Source: Alphaproteobacteria bacterium
GTDB taxonomy: Bacteria; Pseudomonadota; Alphaproteobacteria; TMED109
Assembly: GCA_022825235.1 (NCBI GenBank)
Contig: JAJDYI010000007.1
Span: 62,001 to 126,000, forward strand
Direction of reading: 5' to 3'
DNA length: 64,000 nt
The stretch's first letter is position 1. Each line of letters starts with the position of its first letter. The translations under genes were made by a program, and so were the position numbers. Below are positions 4,741 through 42,643 of the stretch, one piece after another. The notes under the pieces were generated by a model that was given only the letters and a program-made list of their open reading frames with translations, was not told the DNA's origin and made no database searches.

Positions 4741-6848
4741 ACCAGGTAGTCGACCTGATGCCAGAGCACGTCGCGAAGATCATTAACGAGTTCAAGCTGG
4801 TAGCAGAAGTCGACCCGGCAGGAGATCAGCCGAAGGCAATTGACGAACTTGTCGATGGGCTGGAACAGGGTCAACGTGAACAGGTACTCCTGGGAGTCAC
4901 CGGTTCTGGCAAGACATTCACGATGGCGCACGTGATTCAGCGCCTGCAGCGCACATCGTTGATCCTTGCCCACAACAAGACTCTCGCGGCGCAACTCTAC
5001 GGCGAGATGAAATCGTTGTTTCCGAAGAATGCTGTCGAGTACTTCGTCTCCTATTACGACTACTACCAGCCTGAAGCCTACGTTCCCCGAACCGACACCT
5101 ACATCGAGAAGGACGCCTCGATAAACGAGCACATCGATCGCATGCGCCACGCGGCAACCCGTGCCCTGTTTGAGCAAAGCCACGTGATCATCGTGGCCAG
5201 CGTCTCCTGCATCTACGGAATCGGGCCGCTCGAAACCTATACCCGAATGATCATCGAACTAAAGATGGGCGGCAGAATCGAAAGGAACACGCTCCTCTCT
5301 CGCCTCGTCGAACTGCACTATCGTCGGAACGACATGAACCTGGTCCGTGGGACCTTCCGGGCCCGGGGAGACACCGTCGAGGTCTTTCCGGCCCATCTCG
5401 AGGATCGCGCGTGGCGGATTGATCTCTTTGGCGACACGGTGGACCGTCTTGCTGAGTTCGACCCGCTGACTGGTGAGCGCACCGGCACGATGGAGGAAGT
5501 CCGGATCTACGCGAATAGCCATTACGTCACGCCAAAACCCACCTTGAATCAGGCTATTGAGCGGATTCGCGTCGAACTCGCCGAGCGACTCGGTGAACTC
5601 GAGGCATCGGGAAAATTGCTGGAACGTCAGCGTCTCGAAGAACGGACAAATTTCGATCTGGAAATGATGAGCGCGACGGGAAGTTGTGCGGGTATCGAGA
5701 ATTACTCCCGGTATCTCACCGGGCGCCAGCCGGGAGAACCGCCTCCCACGCTGTTTGAGTACTTGCCGCAGAACTCACTCTTGTTTGTCGACGAGAGTCA
5801 CGTCACGGTCCCGCAGGTGCGGGGGATGTTTCGGGGGGATTTCAACCGCAAGACGACACTCGCCCAGCACGGATTTCGACTCCCTTCGTGCGTCGACAAC
5901 CGACCCCTGAAGTTTGAGGAATGGGACGCCATGCGACCTGCCACGGTACTGGTATCGGCGACACCCGGTCCGTGGGAGCTCGAGCACACGGGTGGTAAGG
6001 CAGTCGAACAAGTCATCCGGCCAACAGGCCTGGTGGATCCTGAATGCGAAGTTCGACCCGCAGGCAACCAGGTGGATGACCTGTTGGGAGAAGCGCGGGC
6101 TGTGGCCGAAGGAGGCGGCAGAGTGCTCGTGACGACCCTGACGAAACGGATGGCCGAAAATCTGACCGAGTACCTCGAGGAATCAGGGCTACGTGTTCGT
6201 TACCTGCACTCCGATGTCGACACTCTGGAACGAATTGAGATCATCCGTGACCTACGGCGCGGAGTTTTCGACATTCTGGTGGGCATCAACCTCCTGCGGG
6301 AAGGCCTGGACATTCCCGAATGCGCGTTGGTCGCCATTCTGGATGCGGACAAGGAGGGATTTCTCCGCTCTCGCACGTCGCTCATTCAGACGATTGGCCG
6401 GGCGGCACGGAACGTTGATGGACGCGTCATCCTGTACGCCGACCAAGAGACCGAATCGCTTAGGGGCGCCCTGGAGGAAACCCGTCGGCGCCGGGATCTC
6501 CAGATGAAGTGGAATCACACGCATGGAATTCAGGCCGAATCAGTGCGCAAAGCGATCGCCGACGTACTAGGGAGCATCCATGAACAGGATCACGTGACGG
6601 TTGAGATTGATCCCGAGATTCCGCATCGTATCGGACATAATCGGGAAGCCTACGAAGCTGAGCTGGAGGAGCGCATGCACCGCCATGCCGCTGCACTTGA
6701 ATTCGAGGAGGCTGCGCAGGTGCGGGACGAATTGAAGGCGCTCCGCGATAACGATCTCGGCATCCCTTCGAGAGCGGGGCCGAAATCGCCGCCGCGGCGG
6801 CGGCGAACCGTGAGGAATTCGGGCCGCACCCGTTCAAGGCATCGCTGA
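4737..6848 (+). CDS. uvrB: excinuclease ABC subunit UvrB
   Basis: UvrB is the damage-verification helicase of nucleotide excision repair; it loads with UvrA and recruits UvrC for incision. All landmarks are present: GDQPKAI, Walker A GVTGSGKT, the damage-probing beta-hairpin region [23 protein letters not shown] (motif II), [13 protein letters not shown] and QTIGRAARN (motif VI). The UVR domain near the C-terminus ([18 protein letters not shown]) contacts UvrC. GTG at 4737 gives a 4-nt GTGA overlap with the aminotransferase; ATG at 4758 is an equally sensible start seven codons later. The tail after the UVR motif is a basic extension of about 30 residues rich in Arg and Pro. uvrC lies 1.5 kb downstream; uvrA is not in the window. 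Confidence 0.97.
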
Positions 6849-29916: not shown

Positions 29917-30613
<697 letters not shown>

Positions 30614-34648: not shown

Positions 34649-35641
34649 TCACGCCGCCGACGCCAGAAACGGCTCGCTCTGAACCCGCAGGCCATCCTTG
34701 GCCGCTTCATACTCGGCGCGAAGCCGTCCCACGATCTCTGCAGTCGAGGGCACGTCCCCGATCATTCCCGAGCTCTGCCCGGCGCTCCAGATGTCCCGCC
34801 AGGTGCGCCGATCAACGCTGCCGCCGGATCGGAAGTCCATTTTCGACTTGTCGGCTTCCGGTAAATTCGCCGGGTCCAGACCGGCTTCCGCGATACTGGC
34901 TGACAGATAGTTCCCTTTCACCCCGGAAAACAGGCTGGTGTAAACGATGTCCGAGGCGCGGCTTTCCACCACCATCTGCTTGTAACGTTCCGGCGCATTC
35001 GCCTCCTTGGATGCGATGAAGCGCGTCCCGAAGTATGCGAGGTCCGCCCCCATCGCCTGAGCCGCCAGGATCTGGCCGCCGGTAGCCATGGCTCCGGACA
35101 GAATGACGGGGCCATCGAAGAACTGGCGAACTTCGGCGACCAGGGCAAACGGACTCAGGGTCCCTGCATGACCGCCCGCTCCGGCGCACACCAGGATCAA
35201 ACCGTCTGCCCCTTCGTCCAGAGCCTTCTTGGCATGCCGGATGTTGGTCACATCGTGAAAAATCCGCCCGCCGTACGAATGGATCTGTTCTTCGATTGCG
35301 GTTGGCGCCTGCAGACTGCTGATAATGAATGGCACCTCGTGCTTGACGCAGACGTCGACATCGTGTTCCAGCCGCTCATTCGAACGGTGCACGATCTGGT
35401 TGACCGCGAACGGCGCGACGGGTGCGCCGGGATGGGCCTTGGCCCAAGCCTCAAGCTCCGACTTGATGCGCCCGATCCACTGATCCAGCATCTCCGGAGG
35501 CCTTGCATTGAGCGCCGGGAAGGCACCCATGACACCTGCCTTGCACTGCTCGATGACGAGGTCGGGGTTCGACACGATAAACAGAGGCGCTCCAATGAGC
35601 GGAAGTGAAAGACGTCTCTCCAAGTACGTTGGAAGCGGCAT
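34649..35641 (-). CDS. nitronate monooxygenase family flavoprotein (FabK/2-nitropropane dioxygenase-like)
   Basis: A 330-residue FMN enzyme with a TIM-barrel fold. Landmarks are LSLPLIGAPLFIVSNPDLVIEQCKAGVMGAFPAL at the N-terminus, the LVCAGAGGHAG phosphate-binding block, ILSGAMATGGQILAAQAMGADLAYFGTRFIAS and the later SGMIGDVPS. The family includes nitronate monooxygenases and enoyl-ACP reductase FabK. The start is ATG with AAAGGA 6 nt upstream. It is divergent from the acyl-CoA carboxylase, and a perfect palindrome lies between them, so the two may be co-regulated. Confidence 0.85.
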   Translation of the reverse strand: MPLPTYLERRLSLPLIGAPLFIVSNPDLVIEQCKAGVMGAFPALNARPPEMLDQWIGRIKSELEAWAKAHPGAPVAPFAVNQIVHRSNERLEHDVDVCVKHEVPFIISSLQAPTAIEEQIHSYGGRIFHDVTNIRHAKKALDEGADGLILVCAGAGGHAGTLSPFALVAEVRQFFDGPVILSGAMATGGQILAAQAMGADLAYFGTRFIASKEANAPERYKQMVVESRASDIVYTSLFSGVKGNYLSASIAEAGLDPANLPEADKSKMDFRSGGSVDRRTWRDIWSAGQSSGMIGDVPSTAEIVGRLRAEYEAAKDGLRVQSEPFLASAA

Positions 35642-35824
35642 GACGATCCTTTCGGCAGGGCAGGCTAGCGAAATCGGGTGAGAGCCGGGCAATCAGCTGG
35701 AGGTCCCGCCAAGGTGCCGTTGTAGCGACCCGGAGTCGTCAGCGTAAGGGCCCGGGATTGCAGGAAGTATCCACGGTCACAATTGAAGGAGCGGTAGAGT
35801 ACTGTAGCGGCTTGCCCCTCAAAG

Positions 35825-35846
35825 ATGGTACAGCCAACTGTACCAT
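35825..35846. promoter_or_regulatory. perfect 22-bp palindromic operator upstream of the acyl-CoA carboxylase
   Basis: ATGGTACAG at 35825-35833 and CTGTACCAT at 35838-35846 form perfect 9-bp arms around CCAA. It is the strongest inverted repeat I found in the window, 69 nt before the carboxylase start and about 180 nt from the divergent flavoprotein start. Size and symmetry fit a TetR- or GntR-type dimeric repressor. A TetR-like gene (42008-42643) lies 6 kb away and is one candidate. The rest of the 35642-35915 gap holds no gene I can support. Confidence 0.7.
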
Positions 35847-35915
35847 TGCCTGCCCGGATATCCCGCCGGGCTCCGGTCAACCCCGACAACTTGCGATCGT
35901 ATTCGGGAGTTAGGT

Positions 35916-38900
35916 TTGAAGCGCGTACTCATTGCCAACCGTGGCGAGATCGCCTTGCGCATTGCGCGGACGGCCTGCGAAAAGGGCCTGGTACCCGTCC
36001 TGGTTCATCCAGAGGACGACCCGCCCTTCCATGCTGCTGCCGGCGCATGGCTTCGGCAGTCGATCCCGGGTCGGGGCGTCGCCGCATATCTCGACCACGA
36101 GCAGGTGCTGCAGGCGGCAGACGCCGCTGACTGCGACGCCATTCATCCGGGTTACGGCTTCCTGAGCGAGAATGCCGGTTTTGCGCGCGCGGCCATCGAG
36201 TCGGGCTGCACCTTTGTCGGCCCTGCCCCGGAGACGCTCGAACTCTTCGGCGACAAGATACGTGCGCGCGAATTTGCCCACCGGTGCGGGACTCCCGTGT
36301 TGCCCGGGACGGCCGGTGACAGCGGCATTGAAGCGGCACGCGAGTTCTTCCGCACGCTCGCGGTTGGCGAAGCGGCGATGATCAAGGCGGCGGGCGGAGG
36401 CGGCGGACGCGGAATGCGGGCGGTGCGCAGCCTGGAAGAGCTCGAACGCGAATGGTCGCGATGTGAAGACGAAGCGGAGCGGGCATTCGGAAACAAGGCC
36501 CTGTACGCGGAGAAGCTGGTGCAACGGCCGCGCCACCTCGAAGTCCAGATCGCCGGCGACGGCACCGGCACCGTCACCGCGTTCGGGGAGCGTGAATGCA
36601 GTCTGCAGCGCAGCCGACAGAAACTGCTGGAAATTGCACCGGCCCCCAATCTGTCCCCGGACACACGCGAGCAGATCATCGAATGTGCCGTGTCCATGGC
36701 ACGAGCGGCAGAGTTCGCAAACCTCGGTACTTTCGAGTTTCTGCTAGAGGAATCCGGAGCCTTTCACTTCATCGAAACGAATCCGAGACTTCAGGTTGAA
36801 CATACGGTCACAGAAGAGGTTTTCGGTATCGATCTTGTCGGATTGCAGTTTGACCTGGCGGCCGGAGCACCTCTGTCGAATGTCGCCAACGGGAATGGTC
36901 CGCAGGGGTGCGCCATCCAGGCCCGGATCAACGCGGAGATCCTGAGGCCGGACGGCCAGGTGCGCCCCGCTGCCGGGACCGCCGAGCTATTCCAGCCGCC
37001 CACGGGGCCGGGAATTCGCGTCGATACGCATGGAGGCGCTGGTTTCGCTCCCCATCCGAGCTTCGATTCCCTTCTGGCCAAAGTCATCGTCCGGGGAGAT
37101 TCGTTCCCTACTGCCGCCGGCAAGCTCACCCGGGCGCTGGACGAGTTCCGCATCTCCGGCATTGCCACCAATCTCGGCTTCATGCGCCGGCTGCTGGAGC
37201 GCGAAGAGGTCAAGGCGGGACTCCTCCATACGGAGCTGGTCGAGACACTTCTCGACGAACTGGTGATCGCATCGGACAGTTCCACGCACGAAACCCCAGG
37301 GGGCGGCCCAGTCATCGTGGGTGCGCAGGTTGACTCCAGCGACCCCCTTGCGGTCCTGGTGCACGGGAAAGGCGAGGATCAGGCCGACGCCACCTCCCAA
37401 GAGCCAGGCCCGCTTGAGGCGGGCGCTGTCAAGGCGCCGCTCCAGGGCACCGTGGTCGAAATCCTGGTGTCCGAGGGGGATCCCGTGCGTGCCGGCGGCG
37501 ACTTGCTGGTCATGGAAGCGATGAAGATGCAGCACGTGATCATCGCCGATCACGCCGGCTATGTGTCCCGAATTCCGGTGGCCCTGGGTGATACCGTTGC
37601 CGAGGGAAGCCCCGTGGCGGTCATCAATGCGGCCAGCCTGGAGGCCTCTGAAGCAGACGATTCGGCCTCCATTGACCTCGCGTATATTCGGCCCGATCTC
37701 GCGGAAGTACTTGACCGACAAGCCCGAACGCAGGACGAGCGCCGCCCGAAGGCGGTGGCGCGCCGCCGCCGCACCGGTCAGCGTACCGCGCGCGAGAACG
37801 TCTACGACCTGGTCGACCCGGGATCGTTCACCGAATACGGATCTCTCGTCATCGCGGCACGGCGCCAGCGATACCCCATGGAAGAACTGATCGATCGCAC
37901 GCCGGCAGACGGGCTGATTGCGGGGATGGGCCGCGTCAACGGCGATGTATTCGATGACGAGCGCGCCCGGTGCATGATCATGGCCTACGACTACACGGTA
38001 TTGGCGGGCACGCAGGGCAAGTTCAATCATCACAAGAAGGACAGGATGTTCGCTCTCGCCGAGAACTGGCGCCTGCCCATGGTGTTCTTTACGGAAGGCG
38101 GCGGCGGGCGTCCGGGTGACACGGATATCGTGTTTGCCGCCGATCTGCATATTCCTGCCTTTCACCTCTTTGGCCGGCTTAGCGGGCTCGTCCCCATGAT
38201 CGGAATCGCTTCGGGACGCTGTTTCGCCGGGAATGCCGTGATCCTGGGCTGCAGCGATGTCGTGATCGCAACCCGCAATACGAACATCGGCATGGGCGGA
38301 CCGGCCATGATCGAGGGCGGCGGCCTGGGGATCTTCAAACCGGAGGAAGTCGGGCCGCTCGACGTGCAGGTGCCGAACGGAGTGGTCGACATCCAGGTGG
38401 AGGACGAGGCGGAAGCCGTGCAGGTTGCGAAGCAGTACCTGTCCTATTTCCAGGGACCGGTTGCGGGCTGGTCCGCCGCAGACCAGCGGAAGCTTCGCCA
38501 CGTCGTTCCCGAGAACCGGCTCCGGACCTACGACGTTCGAAGGGTGATCGAACTTCTAGCCGACGATGGCTCCGTGCTGGAGCTGCGGAAGGGCTTTGCT
38601 GCCGGCATGGTGACGGCACTCGTGCGCATCGAAGGTCGGCCAATCGGACTGGTTGCCAACAATCCCCTCCATCTGGCGGGCGCTGTCGACAGTGATGGCG
38701 CCGACAAGGCGGCGCGTTTCATGCAACTGTGCGACGCCTTCGACATCCCCATCCTCTGCCTTTGCGACACGCCGGGCAACATGGTCGGACCGGAAGCGGA
38801 AAAGACCGCGCTGGTACGTCATTGCTGCCGCTTGTACGTCATCGGTTCCAGCGTCACCGTGCCGATGTTCACGATCGTTTTGCGGAAGTCCTACGGACTC

Positions 38901-39242
38901 GGGGCGCAGGCCATGGCAGCCGGCAGCTTCCATGCACCATTCTTCGCGATTTCGTGGCCCACCGGGGAATTCGGCGGCATGGGCCTCGAAGGCGCCGTCA
39001 AGCTGGGCTATCGCGACGAACTGGCCGCAATCAAGGACCCGGAAGAGCGAAAGGCCCGTTACGAAGAACGGGTTGCCGGAATGTATGAGCAGGGCAAGGC
39101 GATCAACACGGCTTCGCTGTTCGAGATCGACGACGTCATCGACCCGGCCGACACCCGGCGCTGGATTGTCGAGGGTCTCCGGGCCTGTCCGCCACCGCCA
39201 CCCCGGACCGGCAAGAAACGCCCTTGCGTGGATACCTGGTGA
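35916..39242 (+). CDS. single-chain acyl-CoA carboxylase (biotin carboxylase + BCCP + carboxyltransferase)
   Basis: An 1108-residue protein joining all three parts of a biotin-dependent carboxylase. Biotin carboxylase spans about 1-450: MKRVLIANRGEIALRIART start, ATP-grasp loop AAGGGGGRGMR, HLEVQIAGDGTG and FIETNPRLQVEHTVTE. The biotin-carrier domain is about 475-545, with the biotinylated Lys537 in VMEAMKMQH. The carboxyltransferase spans about 570-1100, with FFTEGGGGRPGD, GMGGPAMIEGGG and FAISWPTGEFGGMG. Most acyl-CoA carboxylases are split into two subunits; this layout resembles the single-chain long-chain acyl-CoA carboxylases reported from a few actinobacteria and alphaproteobacteria. 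TTG start, chosen for GGGAG 6 nt upstream. The acyl substrate is unknown. Confidence 0.9.
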   Translation: MKRVLIANRGEIALRIARTACEKGLVPVLVHPEDDPPFHAAAGAWLRQSIPGRGVAAYLDHEQVLQAADAADCDAIHPGYGFLSENAGFARAAIESGCTFVGPAPETLELFGDKIRAREFAHRCGTPVLPGTAGDSGIEAAREFFRTLAVGEAAMIKAAGGGGGRGMRAVRSLEELEREWSRCEDEAERAFGNKALYAEKLVQRPRHLEVQIAGDGTGTVTAFGERECSLQRSRQKLLEIAPAPNLSPDTREQIIECAVSMARAAEFANLGTFEFLLEESGAFHFIETNPRLQVEHTVTEEVFGIDLVGLQFDLAAGAPLSNVANGNGPQGCAIQARINAEILRPDGQVRPAAGTAELFQPPTGPGIRVDTHGGAGFAPHPSFDSLLAKVIVRGDSFPTAAGKLTRALDEFRISGIATNLGFMRRLLEREEVKAGLLHTELVETLLDELVIASDSSTHETPGGGPVIVGAQVDSSDPLAVLVHGKGEDQADATSQEPGPLEAGAVKAPLQGTVVEILVSEGDPVRAGGDLLVMEAMKMQHVIIADHAGYVSRIPVALGDTVAEGSPVAVINAASLEASEADDSASIDLAYIRPDLAEVLDRQARTQDERRPKAVARRRRTGQRTARENVYDLVDPGSFTEYGSLVIAARRQRYPMEELIDRTPADGLIAGMGRVNGDVFDDERARCMIMAYDYTVLAGTQGKFNHHKKDRMFALAENWRLPMVFFTEGGGGRPGDTDIVFAADLHIPAFHLFGRLSGLVPMIGIASGRCFAGNAVILGCSDVVIATRNTNIGMGGPAMIEGGGLGIFKPEEVGPLDVQVPNGVVDIQVEDEAEAVQVAKQYLSYFQGPVAGWSAADQRKLRHVVPENRLRTYDVRRVIELLADDGSVLELRKGFAAGMVTALVRIEGRPIGLVANNPLHLAGAVDSDGADKAARFMQLCDAFDIPILCLCDTPGNMVGPEAEKTALVRHCCRLYVIGSSVTVPMFTIVLRKSYGLGAQAMAAGSFHAPFFAISWPTGEFGGMGLEGAVKLGYRDELAAIKDPEERKARYEERVAGMYEQGKAINTASLFEIDDVIDPADTRRWIVEGLRACPPPPPRTGKKRPCVDTW

Positions 39243-42007: not shown

Positions 42008-42643
42008 ATGCCTGCTGCCGATTCCCTCACCGAACTGCTTGTCGAAGCTGCGCTCAGCGCCGCCGAGGAAAGCGAGTGGCGCGGGCTGACTGTCGCCCAA
42101 TTGGCAGAGAGGACGAACGTTGATCCGGATGCCGCCCAAGCGCTGTTCAGCAGTGCGGACGACGTCCTCGACGCCTTTGCCCGACAGACGGACGAGCGCG
42201 TTGTCAGTACATTGGATGAAGAGGACTTCGCCGAAGCCAGCCCCAAGGAACGGCTGCTGGAGGTACTGATGTGCCGCCTCGATGTCCTGGCGCCACGCCG
42301 TGCCGCGATCCGCGCATTCGGTTCGGAAGCGCAACGCTGCCCCAGCGCCGGCGTCCGGATGTTCCGACGGATACACACGTCGATGGGAAATGTGCTGGAC
42401 GCGGCTGATCTTGCAGGCAGCGAGTTCGAACGCACCCTTCGCGCCACCGCCCTCACCTATGTCTGGCTTCGGACGTGCCGCCGATGGCTCCTCGAAGAGG
42501 AGGACCGCGGTCTGGATGCGATCTTCGCGATGCTTGATCAAGAACTGGGCCGGCTCGAGACACTGGCCCGCTGCATGCAGGGATTCGCGCCCCGGAGCCC
42601 TGGCTCCACCCCATCCGCTGATCAAGCCGGCGCGCAAGTCTGA
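42008..42643 (+). CDS. TetR/COQ9-like regulator
   Basis: A 211-residue helical protein. The N-terminus (LTELLVEAALSAAEESEWRGLTVAQLAERTNV) has TetR helix-turn-helix spacing, and the middle (SPKERLLEVLMCRLDVLAPRRAAIRAF) resembles the TetR-like/COQ9 group of Alphaproteobacteria. It lies 24 nt after gdhA. It may regulate the local genes, including the palindrome before the carboxylase, but this is a guess. The alternative is a COQ9-like lipid-binding protein without DNA binding. Confidence 0.7.
   Translation: MPAADSLTELLVEAALSAAEESEWRGLTVAQLAERTNVDPDAAQALFSSADDVLDAFARQTDERVVSTLDEEDFAEASPKERLLEVLMCRLDVLAPRRAAIRAFGSEAQRCPSAGVRMFRRIHTSMGNVLDAADLAGSEFERTLRATALTYVWLRTCRRWLLEEEDRGLDAIFAMLDQELGRLETLARCMQGFAPRSPGSTPSADQAGAQV

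Follow-up and report, generated by a model that had tools for sequence, protein, structure and literature searches.

In the window, i.e. the whole 64-kb stretch of DNA analysed, a gene on the + strand (35916–39242) encodes a predicted single-chain biotin-dependent acyl-CoA carboxylase of 1108 amino acids. The Pfam domains for biotin carboxylase, biotin carrier and carboxyltransferase are all present, in this order, in one chain, and the segment MEAMKMQH contains the EAMKM biotin motif. Among solved structures, its closest relative is the long-chain acyl-CoA carboxylase PDB 4rcn (1045 bits, E = 0), which has the same domain order, as do 5fif and 5h80, two related entries of single-chain carboxylase domains. 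By its domains and structure match, the predicted protein has the features of a single-chain acyl-CoA carboxylase of the LCC type. The divergent gene on the – strand (34649–35641) encodes a nitronate monooxygenase/FabK-like flavoenzyme. Its ATG at 35641 is conserved in seven species of the genus, with an AAAGGA-like ribosome-binding site, and is probably the start codon, rather than the first in-frame TTG at 35692. With this likely start, the divergent gap measures 274 nt. Beyond the flavoenzyme gene lies an apparent ABC transporter operon of the branched-chain amino-acid type, in which the binding protein was named by a Pfam match and the permease and ATPase from sequence only.

The gap contains the 9-4-9 palindrome ATGGTACAG-CCAA-CTGTACCAT (35825–35846; not assigned to a strand), located 69 nt upstream of the TTG start of the carboxylase (35916). 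The perfect palindrome at these coordinates, its distance from the carboxylase start and its location in a divergent gap had all been described in the initial annotation, and our analysis reproduces them exactly. In the + strand RNA, the stem comprises 10 pairs if the G35824-U35847 wobble is counted. The palindrome had also been called the cleanest long inverted repeat of the window. It is indeed perfect but not the longest, as two perfect inverted repeats with 10-bp arms exist elsewhere in the window (6786–6806 and 30528–30554). The second of these, with a 7-nt loop, is situated within a LivF-like ATPase gene, and its pairing is lost in relatives.

The best-conserved block of the gap, exceeding the palindrome, is GTACTGTAGCGGCT (35799–35812, + strand). 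This block is invariant in the seven species, and in each of the seven genomes an exact match occurs only here. It includes a candidate –10 region (TACTGT, 35800–35805) and probably represents the core promoter. A GTACNG half-site is common to the block and the palindrome arm. TCACAAT (35777–35783, + strand), likewise invariant in seven species, is a candidate –35 region. TCACAA and TACTGT are 17 bp apart, and the carboxylase gene could have its promoter in TCACAA-N17-TACTGT. On the – strand, TTACGC-N17-TAMAAC (approximately 35721–35749) is a candidate promoter of the divergent gene, with boxes and spacing kept in seven species; perhaps it is a house promoter type of this genus. A scan with a strict sigma-70 consensus found no promoter. 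A possible sigma-54 site (TGGYRC-N5-TTGC), considered by eye, was dismissed, as it lacks the –12 GC.

Since the palindrome lies just downstream of the candidate carboxylase promoter, it would be transcribed. Fold prediction places a second hairpin, GCCCGG-N8-CCGGGC (35852–35871, + strand), in the putative leader; a different hairpin is predicted at this position in the four more distant species. No leader or riboswitch family was recovered in an Rfam scan, the sole match being at chance level (E = 5.5) and outside the leader. No intrinsic terminator was found at the palindrome, which is followed by TGCCTGCC and not by a U-run. A short ORF beginning within the palindrome (35825–36130) was discarded, its ATG not being conserved in sister species.

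The carboxylase is present at 85–95% identity in six further species of the same genus. At that threshold it was absent from the 21 other family members searched, mostly small, less complete genomes. In all seven species the gap could be aligned and an inverted repeat was found at the same position. The three nearer species, including that of the window, carry ATGGTACAG-CCAA-CTGTACCAT, ATGGTATCG-CCAA-CTGTACCAT and TTGGTACCG-CAA-CAGTACCAT. The remaining four have variants of GGTACCG-GYGG-CGGTACC, one of them with three departures of the G-U type. Outside the genus, the upstream regions of ~75 more distant carboxylase genes contained no inverted repeat with this sequence.

One explanation for these observations is that a dimeric regulator, with its gene elsewhere in the genome, uses the palindrome as its operator, GGTAC-N8-GTACC being the kept core. 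Bound immediately downstream of the putative carboxylase promoter (at a site centred on ~+24 of the predicted start), the regulator would block the polymerase. Both the position and the symmetry fit a repressor site. Moreover, most of the seven species have exact GGTAC and GTACC half-sites around a changing spacer, and symmetric changes (A..T to C..G) are seen at inner bases. However, the sister species G005 and G006 each have one altered half-site, the spacer is shorter by one base in G003, and no regulator gene adjoins the palindrome, as had been noted from the outset. Nor did we detect a second regulatory site in the window species' own genome or in the sister genomes, and near matches were fewer than those of a control pattern. 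We regard the operator, and likewise its proposed mode of action, as possible but doubtful.

The initial annotation had suggested a scan for further copies, and had named the absence of other copies upstream of lipid or acyl-CoA genes as the first of two findings that would together refute its interpretation. This absence is what we observed at fewer than three mismatches. The full site is present as a single copy in the 3.85-Mb genome, with no matches at one or two mismatches; at up to three mismatches there were 12 matches in all, whereas the reversed control pattern gave 26. These counts give no support to a multi-gene regulon for acyl-CoA or lipid genes, although one with strongly degenerate sites would be compatible with them. 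Within the whole 64-kb window, no second copy was found at the same stringency. A half-site search in the seven genomes returned nothing above the control pattern except for codon-like matches. Exact occurrences of TGGTAC-N8-GTACC elsewhere in the own genome are few and plausibly represent codons (for WYEDPY, WYGCRY and WYFRVY). Sites with two mismatches in G001 and G005 (loci L099 and L101) were set aside as coding coincidence, as they are located at the start of an apparent FitA/VapB-type antitoxin ORF. At these loci (~1501–1520), in two sister species, the palindrome-like TCGTACGGTCAACTGTACCA overlaps the start codon of the apparent antitoxin gene. A literature search on the site or a matching regulator yielded nothing relevant.

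The candidate regulator named in the initial annotation was the TetR-like protein encoded at 42008–42643 (+ strand). Structure prediction gives it a TetR-type helix pattern, the confidence being low to moderate (mean pLDDT 62.6; 72–90 in the helix-turn-helix, HTH), and among solved structures it matches 3ni7 best (E = 6e-10); a Pfam search with the protein reached no family. Residues 1–65 are net acidic, containing 4 Lys and Arg versus 14 Asp and Glu, and the recognition helix, VDPDAAQALFS, is devoid of Lys and Arg. The HTH (residues 26–50) is also less conserved than residues 66–190, with 48% versus 74% of positions invariant. The gene follows one for glutamate dehydrogenase at a distance of 25 nt, faces a COQ10-like gene and is 6 kb from the palindrome. 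In the two sister loci fully examined (L014 and L017) it is syntenic with the carboxylase gene, but the rest of the block is equally so. No copy of the palindrome precedes the protein's own operon in the window, allowing up to three mismatches. With its acidic, poorly conserved HTH, this protein looks unfit for DNA binding; it is unlikely to be the regulator of the palindrome. Note that it is weakly similar to BetI and to COQ9 (TIGR02396, E = 5e-4), and that a search of the genome revealed no true COQ9. Instead of being a regulator, the protein may bind lipids in the manner of COQ9.

A further explanation is neutral: an ancestral inverted repeat that arose by chance would have been partly retained by descent in close relatives, without function. 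The repeat frequency in the window is what this predicts. Counting arms of at least 9 bp and loops of 0–10 nt, the 64-kb window contains 4 perfect inverted repeats, while 20 shuffles that preserve dinucleotides averaged 4.15. Thus, window-wide the palindrome is at chance level. However, in the 274-nt gap alone a perfect arm of at least 9 bp was obtained in only 1.1% of shuffles (P ~0.01), which argues against a chance origin. The stem columns are invariant no more often than the rest of the gap (45% vs 41%), as expected for a neutral repeat. It is therefore the pairing, rather than the letters, that carries any signal.

Pairing was retained to a considerable extent. Among the stem cells of the six relatives that differ from the window species, 13 of 18 still form standard pairs in the + strand RNA (7 Watson-Crick and 6 G-U). 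For ten other perfect inverted repeats in the same aligned 14-kb block, only 28% were paired (9% Watson-Crick), and the kept pairing of the palindrome exceeded that of every other repeat in the block. When drift was simulated from the window species along the gap's own tree, the number of paired cells reached p = 0.007 with uniform rates and p = 0.016 and 0.035 with gamma rates. Two pairs have changed on both sides, with joint exchanges of A-T to G-C and of A-T to C-G; the loop changes as well. The drift simulation, the repeat comparison and the changes on both sides all speak against neutrality, but the first two fit an operator equally well as a hairpin. Moreover, these statistics are modest: the seven species fall mainly into two clades and thus provide few independent events. 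Shuffling letters within pairs reached the observed value in 62 of 500 trials (not significant), and the excess of G-U over A-C among + strand cells was likewise not significant (p ~0.25). Taken together, the comparison argues with moderate strength that the palindrome has been kept as an inverted repeat in the genus, and we consider neutral persistence rather unlikely, though far from negligible.

The palindrome is probably a genuine, genus-restricted and functional cis element of an ordinary kind. To this extent the initial interpretation holds, in that the region controlling the carboxylase gene probably includes a conserved palindromic cis element; its further parts, the regulon and the regulator, find no support.

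As to the nature of this element, we lean, tentatively, towards a hairpin that acts in cis from the 5' leader of the carboxylase transcript, in preference to an operator or neutral persistence. Transcription would start near 35812 from the TCACAA-N17-TACTGT block, and about a dozen nucleotides into the RNA a stem of 9–10 bp with a four-base loop would fold. This hairpin would be followed by the second, G+C-rich hairpin, the ribosome-binding site GGGAG and the TTG start. The hairpin may then tune the level of carboxylase via mRNA half-life or ribosome access. The centroid fold contains the palindrome stem in all seven leaders. Compared to shuffled sequences, the leader is clearly more stable only in the window species (z = –3.39); the six other species gave z values of –1.87, –0.49, –0.19, –0.03, 0.45 and 0.56, so that excess stability is not a general property of the leader across species. 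The tolerance of G-U departures on the + strand, together with the lack of further copies in the genome and of an adjoining regulator gene, tentatively favours a hairpin. A spacer one base shorter in one species would also be accommodated more easily by an RNA than by a rigid dimer site. In a more elaborate version, the two tandem hairpins would form a genus-specific leader that sets the carboxylase level by sensing a metabolite or by binding a protein. This version is very improbable; if true, it would represent a new small regulatory RNA leader for this enzyme.

To our knowledge, the control of single-chain acyl-CoA carboxylases in bacteria is essentially unstudied. If real, the palindrome would provide the first handle on the control of such an enzyme in this genus of uncultured Alphaproteobacteria, and a pair of candidate promoters has been mapped along with it. 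In other respects it is an ordinary palindrome close to a promoter. Of more use is the negative result: there is little reason to regard the TetR-like protein as the regulator of the palindrome.

Operators of TetR-type dimeric repressors are near-perfect inverted repeats of ~20 bp at the promoter. The palindrome resembles them in being a near-perfect inverted repeat of about this length at a putative promoter in a divergent gap. Unlike these operators, it has no adjacent or autoregulated regulator and no second copy in the genome, and its spacer varies in length between species. Returning to the hairpin, protective stem-loops are found in the 5' leaders of the E. coli ompA and papA mRNAs, according to works cited in PMC3997798. 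The hairpin predicted here differs from the ompA and papA leaders in being conserved in one genus only and in its position, which would be ~12 nt away from the predicted 5' end and not directly at it. In its general design, however, it would be similar to them, as a short stem-loop that precedes the ribosome-binding site and is close to the 5' terminus of the mRNA.
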